Shown: positions 21,082-56,455 of the stretch, piece after piece
Layout of the letters: every line of letters starts with the position of its first letter
How positions within the stretch are numbered: position 1 is the stretch's first letter
Assembly (NCBI RefSeq): GCF_000341285.1
Contig: NW_005178469.1
Location: forward strand, 186,001 to 250,000
Source of the DNA: Galdieria sulphuraria
Taxonomy: Eukaryota; Rhodophyta; Bangiophyceae; Galdieriales; Galdieriaceae
Direction of reading: 5' to 3'
DNA: 64,000 nt
Made by a program: the position numbers and the translations under genes
The notes under the pieces: generated by a model
The model's database searches: none
Told to the model about the DNA's origin: nothing
What the model saw: the letters and a program-made list of their open reading frames with translations, nothing else

Positions 21082-22542
21082 TTATTCTATACGATGCCAT
21101 TGACCTTTCCTCCAAAGAGCATCTTCAGTTCTTTTCTCTTCCCGGAAAAGTTTGGCTGCAAAATCTTTGTAAAACGGCCCTTGATGAAGAAATGCGCCAG
21201 ACATATCACTGTCATACAGCTTATCATCTTCCCACGCTTTTCTTTCAAAAACAAACAAAACGCGATGAAAACGACAAGTAAGGATTTGTCTACATGCAGC
21301 AATAGATATAAAGGACGGATGGCATATTTCAGTCTTGTCACGTTCAGAAAATTCGTCAGTGCAAGGCAGCCAAAACACCAAACGACCTCCTCCAACTAAA
21401 GAAGAAGTTGCAAAGTCAAAAAGAGATGAAACCAAATTGTCTAAGCCGACGCGTGAGGTCTTTGGAATATGGTTCAAAACAAATCTGGAATGCAGTTTCT
21501 CGCCAACAAATTCCCTCGAACTTTCCCTTACTCCGTATGGTAAGTCGGCAACGATTGCATCCAACCACCCATGACACTTGAAGGATGTGAAACTCGACAT
21601 TATTGACTCATGGCGCCAAGGATTGTGTAAAATATCACATCGGACGATACCCAATGGCTGTTGTAACTTATACTGGCGAAAATTGGATACAATATTTTCT
21701 TCTTTGTTTTTGCCTTTAAGAACGGTGAAACTCAAATCCGAGCCGAGAGTCTCAGCTCCAAATGCAGCAGATGATATAAGAATGCTTGCGGTTCCAACAA
21801 AAGGGTCGAGAATCAGTTTCAAGTTATCTGCCAAAGCAAAATTCGCCATGATAAAAGCTAATTCCGCGTCCATAGAAGTTGTTCCGATAAAGTTTCGCTT
21901 CTTCAGAGTATACTTTTGAACTTGTTTGACGCACCCTTCTGCAATGAGAAGTCCGGCATACACGTGATTAGGAATGTCAATTCTACTGGGTTCGTTCGTA
22001 TGGCCAGCCTTGGGAAACGAGTCTTCAACTATCCATATTTCGTGCTTGAAATTCTGCAAGTTGACTTTCCCAGGAAACTGTTGAAGAATCGAGGAATAAA
22101 AGTTGATTCTATTCACAGTCTCACTCTGCGAGTACTTTCTTCCGTATGAAAATAGTCTGCAACGGAAAGACTCCTTCTCAGATAGGAGTAGTTCCTTGAA
22201 AACATCTTTTCCTAAACTTTGTAACTGTTTCAAACAAAGCTCATGGCTACGGGCATGACTCCAAAGACGAATGATAGCACGCACCAGGACGCAACGCGAG
22301 CCAACCAGAAAGGCCTCTTGATCACTTTGAAAGTTTGCGAAATAAAAGACACCTCGGATTTTCTTTGTGTCCGTTTCTAAGTCGCAAGAGGCTGAACGGA
22401 TAGTCTTTGCAAAAAAGTCTTCTTGTAGTTTCGGCTTCACAATATCTTTTTGTCTTCTGATGACAAGAGAATAGACAGACAACAGCTCTGGAACGGAAAA
22501 CTCCTTGTGAATATCTCTAAAAATTACAAGGTACTTGTGCAT
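21082..22542 (-). CDS. TRMT11: tRNA (guanine(10)-N2)-methyltransferase Trm11
   Basis: Makes N2-methylguanosine at tRNA position 10 with the partner Trm112. Single exon, 486 aa, as long as the family. The N-terminal THUMP-like region begins MHKYLVIFRDIHKEFSVPEL; the SAM-binding Rossmann domain has LKLILDPFVGTASILISSA; the catalytic loop reads IVADLPYGVRE where most relatives have DPPYG. The final third contains GGGRLVFWLPC. ATG 22542 fits the family start. No introns despite its size. Confidence 0.9.
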   Translation of the reverse strand: MHKYLVIFRDIHKEFSVPELLSVYSLVIRRQKDIVKPKLQEDFFAKTIRSASCDLETDTKKIRGVFYFANFQSDQEAFLVGSRCVLVRAIIRLWSHARSHELCLKQLQSLGKDVFKELLLSEKESFRCRLFSYGRKYSQSETVNRINFYSSILQQFPGKVNLQNFKHEIWIVEDSFPKAGHTNEPSRIDIPNHVYAGLLIAEGCVKQVQKYTLKKRNFIGTTSMDAELAFIMANFALADNLKLILDPFVGTASILISSAAFGAETLGSDLSFTVLKGKNKEENIVSNFRQYKLQQPLGIVRCDILHNPWRHESIMSSFTSFKCHGWLDAIVADLPYGVRESSREFVGEKLHSRFVLNHIPKTSRVGLDNLVSSLFDFATSSLVGGGRLVFWLPCTDEFSERDKTEICHPSFISIAACRQILTCRFHRVLFVFERKAWEDDKLYDSDMSGAFLHQGPFYKDFAAKLFREEKRTEDALWRKGQWHRIE

Positions 22543-23013
22543 TGTTAAGTCAAACTATTCTGGCTAAACTGAAAATGATATGAAGTCCAATATACACTCT
22601 AAACTGACATGTAAAAACGAGGTTCAAGTCCTTGGCAATTGTGTTTCTCGGCCATCATTTCCGTCAGCATCCGATGTTAGAGTAGGACATTTGGGTAGTC
22701 GGTTCTCTCTCAAAGGCTTTCAGAACGTAGTCTCTCTGAATTTGAAAAATTTTTATTTGCAATCAACAATTTCTTCCTATACAAGATATATAATAACACT
22801 ATGACGATTCAATCCACTGACAACGTTCCGTGTGAATAAAGTAAGTTTGCTTAGTTGAGATCCATTTGAAAGGTCATCATATCCAAAGCGTCGAAAATTT
22901 TCCCTCAACGCAAATGCACAATACTTGTAACTGATCTCAGGTTTTCGAATTTCTACTCTTCGTTTATATATCAAGGAACAAAATTATTTTTGCCAACATA
23001 TTTGCTATCCACA
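22543..23013. other. Intergenic between TRM11 and glycolate oxidase
   Basis: About 470 bases between divergent genes. An ATG-led frame at 22580-22804 (+, 74 aa) looks like a transit peptide but has no downstream partner, and a minus-strand frame at about 22777-22974 has PEISYKYCAFALRENFRRFGYDD, which may be coding. Neither is supported enough to call a gene. Confidence 0.35.
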
Positions 23014-30200: not shown

Positions 30201-32347
30201 AATATCGGAACAAATGCAAATGCAGCCTTCTTCCATGCAACATCTTTCCTAAACCGAGAAAAATCTTTGACGATTCTTGCCCATCTGTTGGTGTATTGGT
30301 TTGATGTCTTGAGGAAAGCGTAACAATGTTCTTCGTAGTATTCGTTGCACTGCCTGTTTCTATCGACAGTATCAGATATTTCAAAAAAATACCAAGTCAA
30401 GTAGGATACAACCTTCTTTTGTCGTGCTTGTAAACATTTTCCATCCCGCTGAAGAACTCCATTGACGAAGAAATTCTTCAATCTAGAAGTTCTTTGAACA
30501 ACTTCAAATATCATATAGTGGAAATGATGCAAACCTCTGAGGAATTTTCACCTAGTTCAGGCAACGTAACAAGTCGAATCTGCTGAGGTGACTCTCTTTC
30601 CAATATGTGAGGCATGTCCACAGACATTGTCTGAAACAAGAATAAAACAACCAACCGAGTTTTCAAATTCAATTCTTACCTTCACCAAACCAGCTTCTTC
30701 TAAACGTTGAACAAGTCTCCGAACCGTCTTCTTATCTACACGTGAAAATGATGCTCCTTCCCACGTTGCCAAGAAATGTCCAAGATCACTCAAATTCAGT
30801 ACTTTCTCTTCTCTGATGTGTTCCAGTAGATTCTTGGTTCGCAATTCGTTCTGTAAATTCGTAACTTGCTGAGTTCTGGAGCACAGATGAGAATTCTCAT
30901 AAAATCTTTTCATTTCCACAAAGTTCGCGTTGTTCAAGTCGAGATATCGGAAATGCTCAGGAGAAACATAGTAATGGACAGCTTGCTTTCCTTCCTGTAA
31001 ACTCTTCGCCTTGAACCCCAAGTTGGTCAACAAACCTCTACAAACAGAAGAGATGACTTTTCTCGATGCCTTCGAAAGCTGTAAGTATCCAACTCGTGTT
31101 AAAATAAATTCCAAACCTTGCATCCGAGTCTGCCAAGTAGTTCTCTCTGGCTTATGCCTTTTTCACCAGACTCAACAATTAAGGCTAAAACCTGAAACTC
31201 CAAAGTCCTTTCCCATAAAAGGCGATGTTGCAATACACTCCTTTCTTCCGACCTTAGAGAACGGTCATTAGTCGCTTCAAACCTTGCAAGAAAGTCATGA
31301 TGAATTCAGATATTCGCTTAAGCACACTTACATTTTTAAACGAACATATTCGACCTCTTCAGAAATCTCCTCATCATTTGCATTCAAAATAAATCTCTCA
31401 ATCATGTTCCTTTCCTCTAACTTGTTAATCGCATTTCTCCAGTAGCGCAATGCCTTGCCTCGCATGCTATACTCCTTACTTTCTGAAAATGTCTCTTCTA
31501 GCTCTTTAAGAAATTCTTCTTTCAAACTATTGAGAGCCATCGTATATCCGTCTTTCTCGAAAAGAGTTTCTAGAATGTTTCTCAGATGTGTAGTATAGTC
31601 GAATACAACTTCTGTATCTGAGGTATTTAGGTCTGCGCTATCATTGCTTTTCAACGTAGTGCTTTGTGAGTATTTTAAGGTTTCCTGTTTTACTCCATGA
31701 CATTCTGAGTCGTCTCCCAATGATCCGTTTGATTTGAAACGAAAAGAATTCAGACAGATTTTGTACGTTCTCATTGGTTTGTTGTTGTCCCCAGAGTTCC
31801 GAATTTCTCTCTTTCTGGTTATCAGTCTCATGTTTCTAAGGACTCTGATGTGGTGATGTAACGTATGAGGGTCCACAGAAGCAAGTTTAGCCAAATAACT
31901 TTGGCGAATTCCACCTTGGTGAGAATACTTGGCAATAATAGTCAATATTCGAAAACTTTCCGAGGAAATTTGTGCTTGCTCCAGTTCTGAGAAACCACAT
32001 ACTCTAAGAAATACTGTTTCCGAGCAACTCCAAGAACAGTTCAACAGTGATTGACGTACAGCCTGCTCTTCTACCTGTTCTGCATCGAAAGCTTTCGCTA
32101 AGTGGCTACGATAATCCGACGTAAAATTATCACTCCGTATATGAAAACTTTCGGGTAGTTGGCAACCACCTTCAAGTTGAAACTCCTTTCTTGTCAACAA
32201 TTCCTCCACAAGATGACTAAGGGTATTATATTGGAGAGGCGGCACATATCCAGTGTACTCGCTAACCCTACTTACTGCTTCTTCCAGTTTCAACCCATCC
32301 TTTGATAGAGCCAATTCCTTCTTCACTAGAGAAATAAACAGATCCAT
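27285..32347 (-). CDS. GTF3C1: Transcription factor TFIIIC B-block binding subunit
   Basis: Largest subunit of TFIIIC, which binds the internal B block of tRNA genes and recruits TFIIIB for RNA polymerase III. The N-terminal exon (32347 to about 31328) has MDLFISLVKKELALSKDG and a winged-helix B-block domain, ISSESFRILTIIAKYSHQGG...SYLAKLASVDPHTLHHHI. More winged helices follow, including GISQRELLGRLGC joined by a 41-base intron to LSKASRKVISSVCRGLL. A Myb/SANT-like block, SWTDNQDKELIIYVFDQKI...ACKRRFLTLYRTF, matches the plant-type subunit. The last exon (28145-27285) has further winged-helix segments and ends NCMGSIAQ. At least seven introns, roughly 1,500 aa; individual junctions not all fixed. 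Confidence 0.85.
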
Positions 32348-32441
32348 ACTACTATTTGCGCATCCTGGGCAATCGTAAATATTGAAAATTGGCTCACGAT
32401 TGCGTTGATTTCAAACGCATAGCTTTACAAAGAAAAATTCT

Positions 32442-35400
32442 ATGACTGACAATCAGAGTTTTCGTGTGGACAGTTCTGGAGACAGGAATAACTTGATATT
32501 CGAATCACTGTACAAGGCGGATATTCCAGAGTACACAAACCAGGGAACGATATGTCATCCAAACTACAGAAGGACGCTTGGAGCAAAGTTCACGTCGGTA
32601 TCGCTTATGGACTCTTGTATGTAACTCTGCAATTGCTTTGTTTCAACTTGACACTAGTTTCTAGCGTCAAACCGTTTTTGTGACTCTAAAGTACAACGCC
32701 AACTGAAAAAGTCCTCTGGTATGCGAGTTTTGAAGAATTCTTCAAACAACCGAAAATTTCAAGAATTCGAACCCCTCTGTAATACTTCGCAAAACGGTAT
32801 GTTTGTGGTTTTAAGACTTTGTTGTTGATATCTGATTGTTTGGAAAGTTGAAAAACTTCAAGAACAAGTTGTTTCGCAAGCTACTCGCCTCAACTCTGAA
32901 CTTGACAAGGATTTATGCAACGAACAATTGTGGTATGTTCTTTAAAATCTTGAAAAAAGTTTCAGGTGAATAATTGTCTAGGTTGCAACTTGTGGACTTA
33001 CAAAACCGTTATTATGACTTGGGTCTATTGAATAAGAAAAGTATGGTCGACAAGAAATTGTCTATTATTATAAAGGCTTTGGAGAGTATCCCAAACTCTG
33101 AAGATTTGTTGCTTCTATACATAAGTATTATGGCTGGTCTTTGTGATAATGAAACGATGTTTAGTTTATTTCGAAGAGCATTGCAGTGTTCTCCTACAAG
33201 TTTGAAAATTCACTTATTAAGGTGTAGATTTGTGTTATCTTCTCTAGAATCATTTTCACTCTACTCTATGGAGAATATCTGTAGAGAAGCATTTGACTGC
33301 CTTTGTGCCAGTAACTTTGTTCATGGTCTGTATTTTGTTATTACATTTATTCGAATTCTCTTTGAGTCTGGTTGGAAGCAAAAGGCAGTTGGAATTTGCC
33401 AGGCTCTTGTTGAATTCTTTTGTTTTCGTATAGATAATCGGACTGACTTACCTACTGAGTCTGGCCGAATTCGAAAGTTTGAAGAGAGAAATTTATTTAT
33501 TCTTTTTTGGAAGAGTTTCGCTCCTCGTATTGGCGAAATGCCTCGACACAACTGGACTGATTGGCTAGTTATATTTTTAGGAGCAGTTGAGAAACACTAT
33601 GACCTAATAAGAAAATTGGAACAAGATGATTCCGAAGACTCAGACAGTGAGTCTTCATCATCATCTTCCTTGGAAGAGTTTGGAATTCCAGCAAAACTGC
33701 CATCCATCGAAGAAAAGGAAGAAGATGAACAAGAATGGATGGATTCTGACGCATCCTTCTCAAGTCCGGAGCTCTCGGAAACCTCGTCGATTTGTGATCG
33801 AAGGGAAGGAGAGCTTAATTTGTTGTTGACTAGTCGTCTTGTCGGAAATGAGTTTACGGAATGGATACTTGAAGAAGAACGAGATGCTATGGAAAATTCT
33901 TTCGAATGTAGTCTTGAACATCTTTTGCAATTTGAGAATGATAGTTTGAACACTCTATTTGGTATGTTTATGACTTTAAGTTTATAGTAACTTTGATTTG
34001 AAGGGTTTAAGGGAGTTCCGCTGAATATTATTGTCTCCCCAGGGATATAACTCATTTCATACCGCAGAATTGTAATATCGATCGAAGCATTTGTTATCAG
34101 ATGGTAAGTTTTGTAACGTGTCGTGACAGAATTATGATGTTTAATTTTACTCAGGTGATAGAGCTATTGTTGTCTTTGAGAGGCTGGCCGTTCCTTGACT
34201 CAATAGCCAGTTTGATTCCTTTTGATTTACAGAATATTCAATTGAAAGAGGAAACCGTGTCAAACTCCTTTTCATTGTGTCATCCAAGAGATGTAGAAAT
34301 GCCATCATACTCTTCAAAGATGTTATTATTTCGCCTATTCGATCAGATCTGGCCAAGTCTTAGTGATATGAATAGGCTTCTTTCTGAATGGTTGTTGGGA
34401 AGTGGATATTGCCGTGTATTGAAGGGTACCACTTTGAAAGAGAATGTACCGATTTCTTTTATATCGAATGTATATGATTCCCTCCTTTTCAGTAAGGCTT
34501 CTATTTTTCATCTTGGTCATTTGGAAGAGAGAGATTCTTATTCTCTACGGATTGCAGAAGCTTTTATATTTTTTGAAGGTGCAGTTGGTGGATTTTCAAA
34601 AGGTAGATCCACAGCCAAGAGATTGTTGAAGACTTGCGAGAGTTTTTCTCTTTATACGACTTTTGCAGAGTTGCTAATTCATGAAGACTTGTTAGAAGAG
34701 AGTAAAAGCGTATACTATTCTTGTTTGAATCGTCTAAATGACTCTAGTTGGAAAGGGACAGATTGCTGTCGTGTGATACTAAGTTTTCTATTTTACCTGT
34801 TGAATCATGTTAGCGAAGATTGGAGAACGAAGAAGACGAAATGTCATAGTATTTTCAGAGTTTTCATAGGAAAATTTGGTGGAATTGAAGAATCTTTAAG
34901 CTTGACAGAAACGATGATGATAAAGAACAAGTTGCAGAAATTGAGTAATGAAAGGATGTCTGTATCTTGGAGTCTTGGTGAAGAAATGCATCATTTCTCA
35001 GTTTTAGCTTGTCAGCTTATGTTTGAATGGCTCCTTGGTGGCGTACACAGAGCTAGAGATGTATTGCACAAGATAGAAAATGACCTGGCATTCACAATAC
35101 AACGAAATGAGAGGAATGAAGAAGTATATTCTATTGTTCTTGTCAAGTTGAGACAGTTACTATGCCTATTTACCTTTCTCGACTGGCAATACTCTGGGGA
35201 GTCCAATATAAGAACTATTCGAAGTTATATGGAAGAGGCACTTGAAAAATTTCCGGCGGATGAGTTACTTCTTTTCATGTATACGTTTCTTTTTCGCTTC
35301 TACGCTAATCACTCAATGGAGTCTTCTCTTCAGTTTTTGTTCAGTCGTGTAAATCATAGGTCAAATGCGTCAGCTATGACTGTTATTGCTCAGATTGTTG

Positions 35401-56168: not shown

Positions 56169-56341
56169 TTTAGTTGTATTTTCTTGTCATTACTTTTGTC
56201 AATAAAGCAAACTTTTTCGATGAGAGCAAGGATATCGAGATTGCTCTTCATTTTGTTTCTATTGGCTACAGTAGTAGTTGTAGAATGCTTTATATGATAG
56301 CTGGTGACCCTACTGTAGTAGTGCAGTGGTTGAGAACAGGA

Positions 56342-56431
56342 TCCGCTGTAGTCTATACATTGCAAGTGACTCAGTGGTTAGGATGCCTGGTTTTCACCCA
56401 GGAGACCCGGGATCAAGCCCCGGCAGCGGAA
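56342..56431 (+). tRNA. trnE-UUC: tRNA-Glu(UUC), D-loop interrupted
   Basis: The acceptor stem TCCGCTG/CAGCGGA pairs perfectly over 7 bp, the anticodon stem CCTGG/CCAGG encloses loop TTTTCAC with anticodon TTC, and the T stem is CCGGG/CCCGG. The gene is about 90 bases instead of 72-73. The extra 17-18 bases (about 56356-56373, TACATTGCAAGTGACTCA) sit in the D-loop between GTCTA and GTGGTTAGGAT, the two halves of a normal Glu D-arm. This is where Cyanidioschyzon tRNA genes are known to carry extra introns. The T-loop is ATCAAGC instead of the usual TTCAANN. A 7-T Pol III terminator follows. Confidence 0.88.
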
Positions 56432-56448: not shown

Positions 56449-56455
56449 TTTTTTT
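56449..56455 (+). terminator. RNA polymerase III terminator of tRNA-Glu
   Basis: Seven T residues begin 18 bases after the tRNA 3' end, the usual Pol III stop signal. Confidence 0.75.

Follow-up and report, generated by a model that had tools for sequence, protein, structure and literature searches.

Ectopic bulge-helix-bulge (BHB) introns in nuclear tRNA genes are reportedly known from the alga Cyanidioschyzon merolae through the studies of Soma et al. 2007 and 2013. Introns away from position 37/38 are rare among eukaryotes at large (PMC4090602), and in C. merolae introns interrupt more than 62% of the nuclear tRNA genes, up to three per gene, with BHB introns in the D arm among them (PMC9602550). 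The preliminary description of the locus reported here had likewise pointed to this rarity and to C. merolae. D- and T-arm introns in tRNA genes of red-algal descent are also found in the nucleomorph of Guillardia theta, where introns of 3 to 24 nt were shown to be removed by RT-PCR (Kawach et al. 2005, cited by PMC4090602 and PMC3978253). Crenarchaeal non-canonical introns are likewise BHB introns, strict or relaxed, and turn up throughout the cloverleaf (PMC3978253), the archaeal endonucleases being of different subunit make-up.

The tRNA-Glu(UUC) gene of Galdieria sulphuraria described here resembles those of C. merolae in being a cyanidiophycean nuclear tRNA gene, from a set in which introns occur in the D, anticodon and T arms, some genes have more than one intron, and BHB motifs recur. 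It differs from them in belonging to another genus, and it differs from the Guillardia genes in residing in a free nucleus rather than a nucleomorph. Permuted tRNA genes are known in C. merolae, whereas the tRNA halves of this gene stand in normal order. Unlike C. merolae, for which PMC3978253 reports no Sen15 homolog and no identified homologs of TFC1 and TFC3, Galdieria appears to possess both a Sen15 and a TFIIIC B-block protein. Among the papers listed by a literature search, judged largely by title, none dealt with Galdieria tRNA introns, a result that does not establish absence from print; PMC9812998 has no occurrence of tRNA, and one paper that mentions permuted tRNA does no more than cite Soma 2007.

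The interrupted tRNA-Glu(UUC) gene and its second copy

The window is the whole stretch of DNA that was analysed, 64,000 nt long (C7:186001-250000) and most likely nuclear, from a genome of 12.05 Mb in 102 contigs. The preliminary description had recognised in it a tRNA-Glu(UUC) gene with a D-loop intron of 17-18 bases and perfect pairing in all other arms, and each of these claims stands. The anticodon is TTC (Table 1), and pairing is complete in the acceptor stem (TCCGCTG/CAGCGGA, 7/7), the anticodon arm (CCTGG-TTTTCAC-CCAGG, 5/5), the T stem (CCGGG/CCCGG, 5/5) and, counting two G-U pairs, the D stem (GUCU/GGAU, 4/4). The insert is placed between A14 and G15, a position other than 37/38; moving it by one base (56355-56372) leaves the mature tRNA unchanged, and its removal yields a canonical 72-nt tRNA-Glu(UUC) with all arms paired. 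A scan of the window with ARAGORN reported no tRNA, and the Rfam match in the window extends only over 56366-56424, at 31.5 bits (cut-off 29). The absence of T54, also noted at the outset, is real, as the T-loop begins AUC and A54 is present in both Glu(UUC) copies, but it is nothing special here, because all 3 Ala genes among the 34 tRNA loci examined (a T-loop was obtained for 33) also have A54.

Table 1. Features of the tRNA-Glu(UUC) locus in window coordinates; the arrow marks a putative cut site
Feature	Position	Strand	Basis or remark
tRNA-Glu(UUC) gene, T1 to discriminator base	56342..56431	+	90 nt = 72 + 18
5' exon, tRNA positions 1-14	56342..56355	+	letters read; same 14 bases in second copy
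Intron TACATTGCAAGTGACTCA, 18 nt, position 14/15	56356..56373	+	BHB register; one-base slide possible
3' exon, position 15 to discriminator base	56374..56431	+	one base unlike second copy
Anticodon TTC	56393-56395	+	letters read
Exon strand of central 4-bp helix, A9-C12 (AGUC)	56350..56353	+	
Intron strand of central helix (GACU)	56368..56371	+	GACTCA common to both copies
5' bulge UA↓U, putative cut after 56355	56354..56356	+	
3' bulge CA↓G, putative cut after 56373	56372..56374	+	
Intron-side helix, 2 bp: AC (56357-56358) with GU (56366-56367)	56357..56367	+	weak alone
A-box-like upstream sequence GTAGTGCAGTGGTT	56318..56331	+	putative promoter role, post hoc
Run of 7 T, which we take to be a likely RNA polymerase III terminator	56449..56455	+	letters read; role presumed

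With the gene as query, the genome returned the gene itself and one other place, a second Glu(UUC) copy about 24 kb away on the minus strand (C7:266220-266309, 89% identical). The exons of the two copies are identical at 71/72 positions, and both are interrupted at the same place by 18 nt, TACATTGCAAGTGACTCA in the window and CGTGAATAAAACGACTCA in the second copy. Divergence within the inserts is uneven: only 2/12 of the first bases agree and 6/6 of the last (hypergeometric 0.0015), and the exons differ from the first 12 insert bases in conservation at a Fisher value of 2.6e-10, the 12/6 division having been picked after inspection of the sequences. T runs lie downstream of both copies. A chance resemblance to a tRNA is rejected, because a second gene with near-identical exons carries an 18-nt insert at the same place.

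The preliminary description would have counted a better tRNA-Glu(UUC) gene without interruption as evidence against its reading. Pattern searches and ARAGORN found no such gene outside contig C36; this 158-kb contig, which is probably the plastid, has an uninterrupted tRNA-Glu(UUC) called by ARAGORN. The anticodon arm, allowed up to 3 mismatches, matched the genome at five places (reversed control, 3), namely the two Glu copies and near-matches on C9, C19 and C43, with 3 mismatches each, which were set aside by eye as having no tRNA context. With up to 2 mismatches allowed, the pattern for a D arm without intron matched the genome twice, in Glu(CUC) and Val(CAC) (control, 2). The interrupted pattern GTCTA-N{6,36}-GACTCAGNGG matched at four places, the two Glu copies, Pro(AGG) and C2:179204 (reversed control, 0), the last of which was dropped as a tRNA candidate for want of tRNA arms by eye. 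An exact scan of prokaryote and virus contig collections with 31 exon bases gave 0 matches, as expected there. The two interrupted copies would presumably be needed, since these searches revealed no further cytosolic tRNA-Glu(UUC).

Elsewhere in the window lie a Trm11-like protein (21082-22551, minus strand), whose best matches after itself are at 82% in Galdieria partita, 75% in another protein and 57% in one labelled Galdieria phlegrea, and an NRDE-2 family protein (32974-33987, plus strand; PF08424, 88.4 bits).

Predicted splice-site geometry of the D-arm introns

Removal of the insert, it had been argued at the outset, would call for a BHB-like fold at its ends, and such a fold can be drawn for all nine D-arm introns seen among 45 tRNA loci outside C36, those of both Glu copies included. 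In each Glu copy the GACU of the insert pairs with exon bases A9-C12 to give a 4-bp helix between 3-nt bulges, UA↓N and CA↓G, and this predicted arrangement is the bulge-helix-bulge geometry of the tRNA-splicing endonuclease. Cuts after the second base of each bulge would leave GUCUA + GUGGUUAGGAU. Two registers yield the canonical mature Glu sequence, of which only one has the 4-bp helix, and shuffled introns reach that helix in the canonical register in 5.2% of trials for the window copy and 3.4% for the second copy (20,000 trials each). Of the outer helices that the strict form has on both sides, the intron side has 2 bp (AC:GU in the window copy, GU:AC in the second), and because no exon-exon helix is evident beside the 3' bulge the motif is relaxed, a form that reviews accept as belonging to this class of intron (PMC3978253).

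Unconstrained folding was mostly uninformative. The centroid fold of the second copy contains the exact central helix together with the 5' bulge and the 2-bp helix on the intron side, and that of the window copy lacks the BHB helix; in minimum-energy folds no cloverleaf appeared, whether for the two precursors or after splicing, and the window copy showed no BHB. With the structures set by hand, the BHB form came to -27.7 and -28.2 kcal/mol, as against -25.9 kcal/mol for the form whose closed D stem encloses the intron, a gain of 1.8 and 2.3.

The genome gave 62 Rfam tRNA matches, 20 on C36 and 42 at loci outside it, to which further queries added three (the second Glu copy, Pro(AGG) and Gln(CUG)) for 45 loci outside C36; these counts are lower bounds, because the genome search scores best candidates only, and it missed, for example, the Glu(UUC) of C36 that ARAGORN found. 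D-arm introns occur at 9/45 of these loci, so that the rarity of introns off 37/38 asserted in the preliminary description holds for eukaryotes at large, as reviews have it, but not for this genome. They fall at 14/15 in Glu (two copies) and Pro(AGG), at 22/23 in eMet (two copies), Gln(UUG), Gln(CUG) and Arg(UCU), and immediately before A21 in Val(UAC).

In the register used, all nine share the 4-bp helix, the 3-nt bulges and an intron end in CA↓. Shuffle frequencies for single genes range from 1.4% to 9.1%, so that a helix taken singly is weak, and their product over one gene per family (Glu, Pro, eMet, Gln) is 5e-6 to 3e-5, depending on the eMet copy; these four were chosen because their register is independent of the motif, the registers of Val and Arg having been picked with its help and copies within one family not being independent. 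Val, Arg and Gln(CUG) have rival registers with an equal or better helix, but these give no canonical tRNA. The eMet copies differ by C/U in the exon, and the difference is matched by G/A in the intron strand of the helix (C-G versus U-A). Pro(AGG) shares with Glu both the 14/15 position and GACUCA↓G, with an intron helix of 5 bp. Divergence of the intron with the helix kept is seen between the two Glu, the two eMet and the two Gln copies, all within the same genome.

Pro(AGG) (L075, C41:99618-99721) has ectopic introns at two places, 14/15 and 55/56, each with a 4-bp BHB helix, and the Gln genes with introns at 22/23 are L035 and L082. ARAGORN calls the Gln(UUG) locus L035 a tRNA-Trp by misreading the anticodon loop, and misses both eMet copies, Arg(UCU) and both Glu copies. 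At Lys(UUU) (L053, C9:152738-152811 and downstream) the 3' strand of the acceptor is displaced downstream by about 18 nt, which would fit a T-loop insert, and no register gave it a canonical T-loop. ARAGORN and inspection by eye revealed no initiator Met, Tyr, Ser(UGA), Ser(GCU), Leu(CAA), Leu(CAG), Gly(GCC), Gly(CCC) or Pro(UGG); among these, dedicated queries covered only initiator Met, Gly and Pro, with 0 genome matches for the anticodon-arm pattern of initiator tRNA-Met and only its own two copies for Gly(UCC) as query. The unseen tRNAs may be absent, split or permuted.

Splicing machinery and competing readings

We regard the locus as a working nuclear tRNA-Glu(UUC) gene whose 18-nt BHB intron at 14/15 is removed by the Sen endonuclease and a ligase, with a probability of about 0.88; transcription, cleavage, ligation and the exact cut sites of the precursor are what we infer from the letters. 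In the precursor, the intron GACU would pair with A9-C12 to form a 4-bp helix flanked on its two sides by the UA↓U and CA↓G bulges. Cleavage by the Sen endonuclease would follow the second base of both bulges, and a putative ligase would then join A14 to G15, restoring the D arm GUCUAGUGGUUAGGAU.

Two open frames of the genome have the catalytic domain PF01974 (74 and 47.1 bits, cut-off 27), with Sen34 (8.3e-17) and Sen2 (2.2e-12) as their closest solved chains, and the catalytic subunits Sen2 and Sen34 are thereby encoded. A Sen15-like gene with a short intron (L073, C62:14658-15002) matches PF09631 at 25.2 bits (cut-off 22) in the genome, over a stretch with stops inside it; the first exon alone scores 13 bits and the exons joined by eye 32.9 bits, and the PDB match is weak (E 0.0023). 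If this assignment holds, Sen15 would be encoded as well. Sen54 is marginal, with a PF12928 match of 24.2 bits (cut-off 24) that contains two stops, and no match for the 38-residue piece alone. In C. merolae the odd set of Sen subunits has been suggested to be possibly linked to its odd tRNA genes (PMC4090602).

Several other readings of the insert can be weighed against this one. The insert might be removed at other cut sites, for instance one base to the left, or by an enzyme other than the Sen complex: the one-base-left register gives the same mature tRNA, the motif is relaxed, and in the Guillardia theta nucleomorph many of the ectopic introns are removed although they lack a defined BHB (PMC3978253 and PMC4090602). 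Register 0, on the other hand, is the only one with a 4-bp helix in each of the nine D-arm genes, and we consider this reading improbable. It is more improbable still that the mature tRNA retains the insert and so has an enlarged D-loop. At 18 nt it is short enough for this to be conceivable, but 10/12 insert positions have diverged freely between the copies against 1/72 in the exons, removal restores a D arm like that of Glu(CUC), and the same geometry recurs in other isoacceptors. We give least credence of all to the view that both copies are pseudogenes and that GAA is read by means of a gene missing from the assembly or an imported tRNA. The assembly, in 102 contigs, is possibly incomplete, some isoacceptors were unseen and the searches set lower bounds; against this stand the 71/72 exon positions kept, the full pairing of the acceptor, anticodon and T stems, and the T runs after both copies.

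The split A box

The Glu intron splits the A box, and its end together with the next exon bases, TGACTCA↓GTGGT, itself resembles one (13.0). The GACTCA that ends the insert could on these grounds owe its conservation to a role as displaced A box (TGACTCA↓GTGG) rather than to splicing, the insert being an intron all the same; this explanation, which we think unlikely though less so than the preceding ones, may be compatible with removal by the Sen endonuclease and competes with it solely over the reason for conservation. By a weight matrix derived from 41 other genes, TGACTCAGTGGT scores 13.0 in the window copy, inside the range of the internal A boxes of those 41 (minimum 9.0, median 15.2); the corresponding site reaches 10.1 in Pro(AGG) and 7.7 in the second Glu copy. 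The last of these values, however, is under the minimum of the 41, and where a D-arm intron leaves the A box intact, the pairing and the CA↓ ending are preserved with a different sequence.

A second A-box-like sequence lies upstream of the gene and is identical at 12/14 positions to the gene's own mature positions 7-20, the A-box region. The idea of upstream A boxes arose from inspecting these genes, and all its statistics are accordingly post hoc. The same matrix of 41 other genes was run over the 80 nt upstream of 44/45 loci (L047 was left out), and ranked Pro(AGG) highest (17.4 at -24), followed by the window gene (13.9 at -23) and an eMet copy (8.4 at -36), so that two of the three genes with a split A box have A-box-like sites 23-24 nt upstream, the best two of 44. 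Long loci hold 14 sites of at least 13.9 in 128,718 positions, a background that includes the tRNA genes' own A boxes, and the expectation is accordingly 0.0075 for each upstream region. The second Glu copy, the third 14/15 gene, has no upstream A box (-4.4). In a test for a copy of each gene's own A box the window gene and Pro ranked 1 and 2 of 44 (P 0.003 and 0.06). With a plain consensus over 43 loci, the strict form matched upstream of two, Pro and an eMet copy, as against 0.19 expected by shuffling, and found no match for the window gene; the loose form matched at 6 of 43 loci (2.1 expected).

Exons resembling the largest TFIIIC subunit are found in the window at 30557-32410, on the minus strand, with a B-block (PF04182, 31.1 bits, cut-off 22) and a GTF3C1 winged helix (PF24101, 42.9 bits, cut-off 30), GTF3C1 being, as we take it, the counterpart of TFC3. 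From these domain matches, the largest TFIIIC subunit looks to be encoded here. It is tentatively suggested, as a possibility that we hold to be doubtful, that introns splitting the A box come with promoter rescue, by an external A box lying some 23 nt in front of the window Glu gene and of Pro(AGG), and by an intron 3' end that would serve as both splice helix and displaced A box; because Galdieria kept TFIIIC, unlike C. merolae, it would have had to restore internal promoters.

The Glu intron is a well-supported further example, in another genus, of the D-arm BHB introns known from C. merolae, and the presence of Sen15 and of a TFIIIC B-block protein, together with the upstream A-box-like sites, may be the newer observations. 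D-arm introns of this kind need not go with a missing Sen15, provided that the Sen15 assignment holds. D-arm BHB introns of nuclear tRNA genes are extended from Cyanidioschyzon to Galdieria, where the intron strikes an isoacceptor with no uninterrupted nuclear copy found, and at this locus one could test how a gene driven by an internal polymerase III promoter manages when an intron splits its A box.
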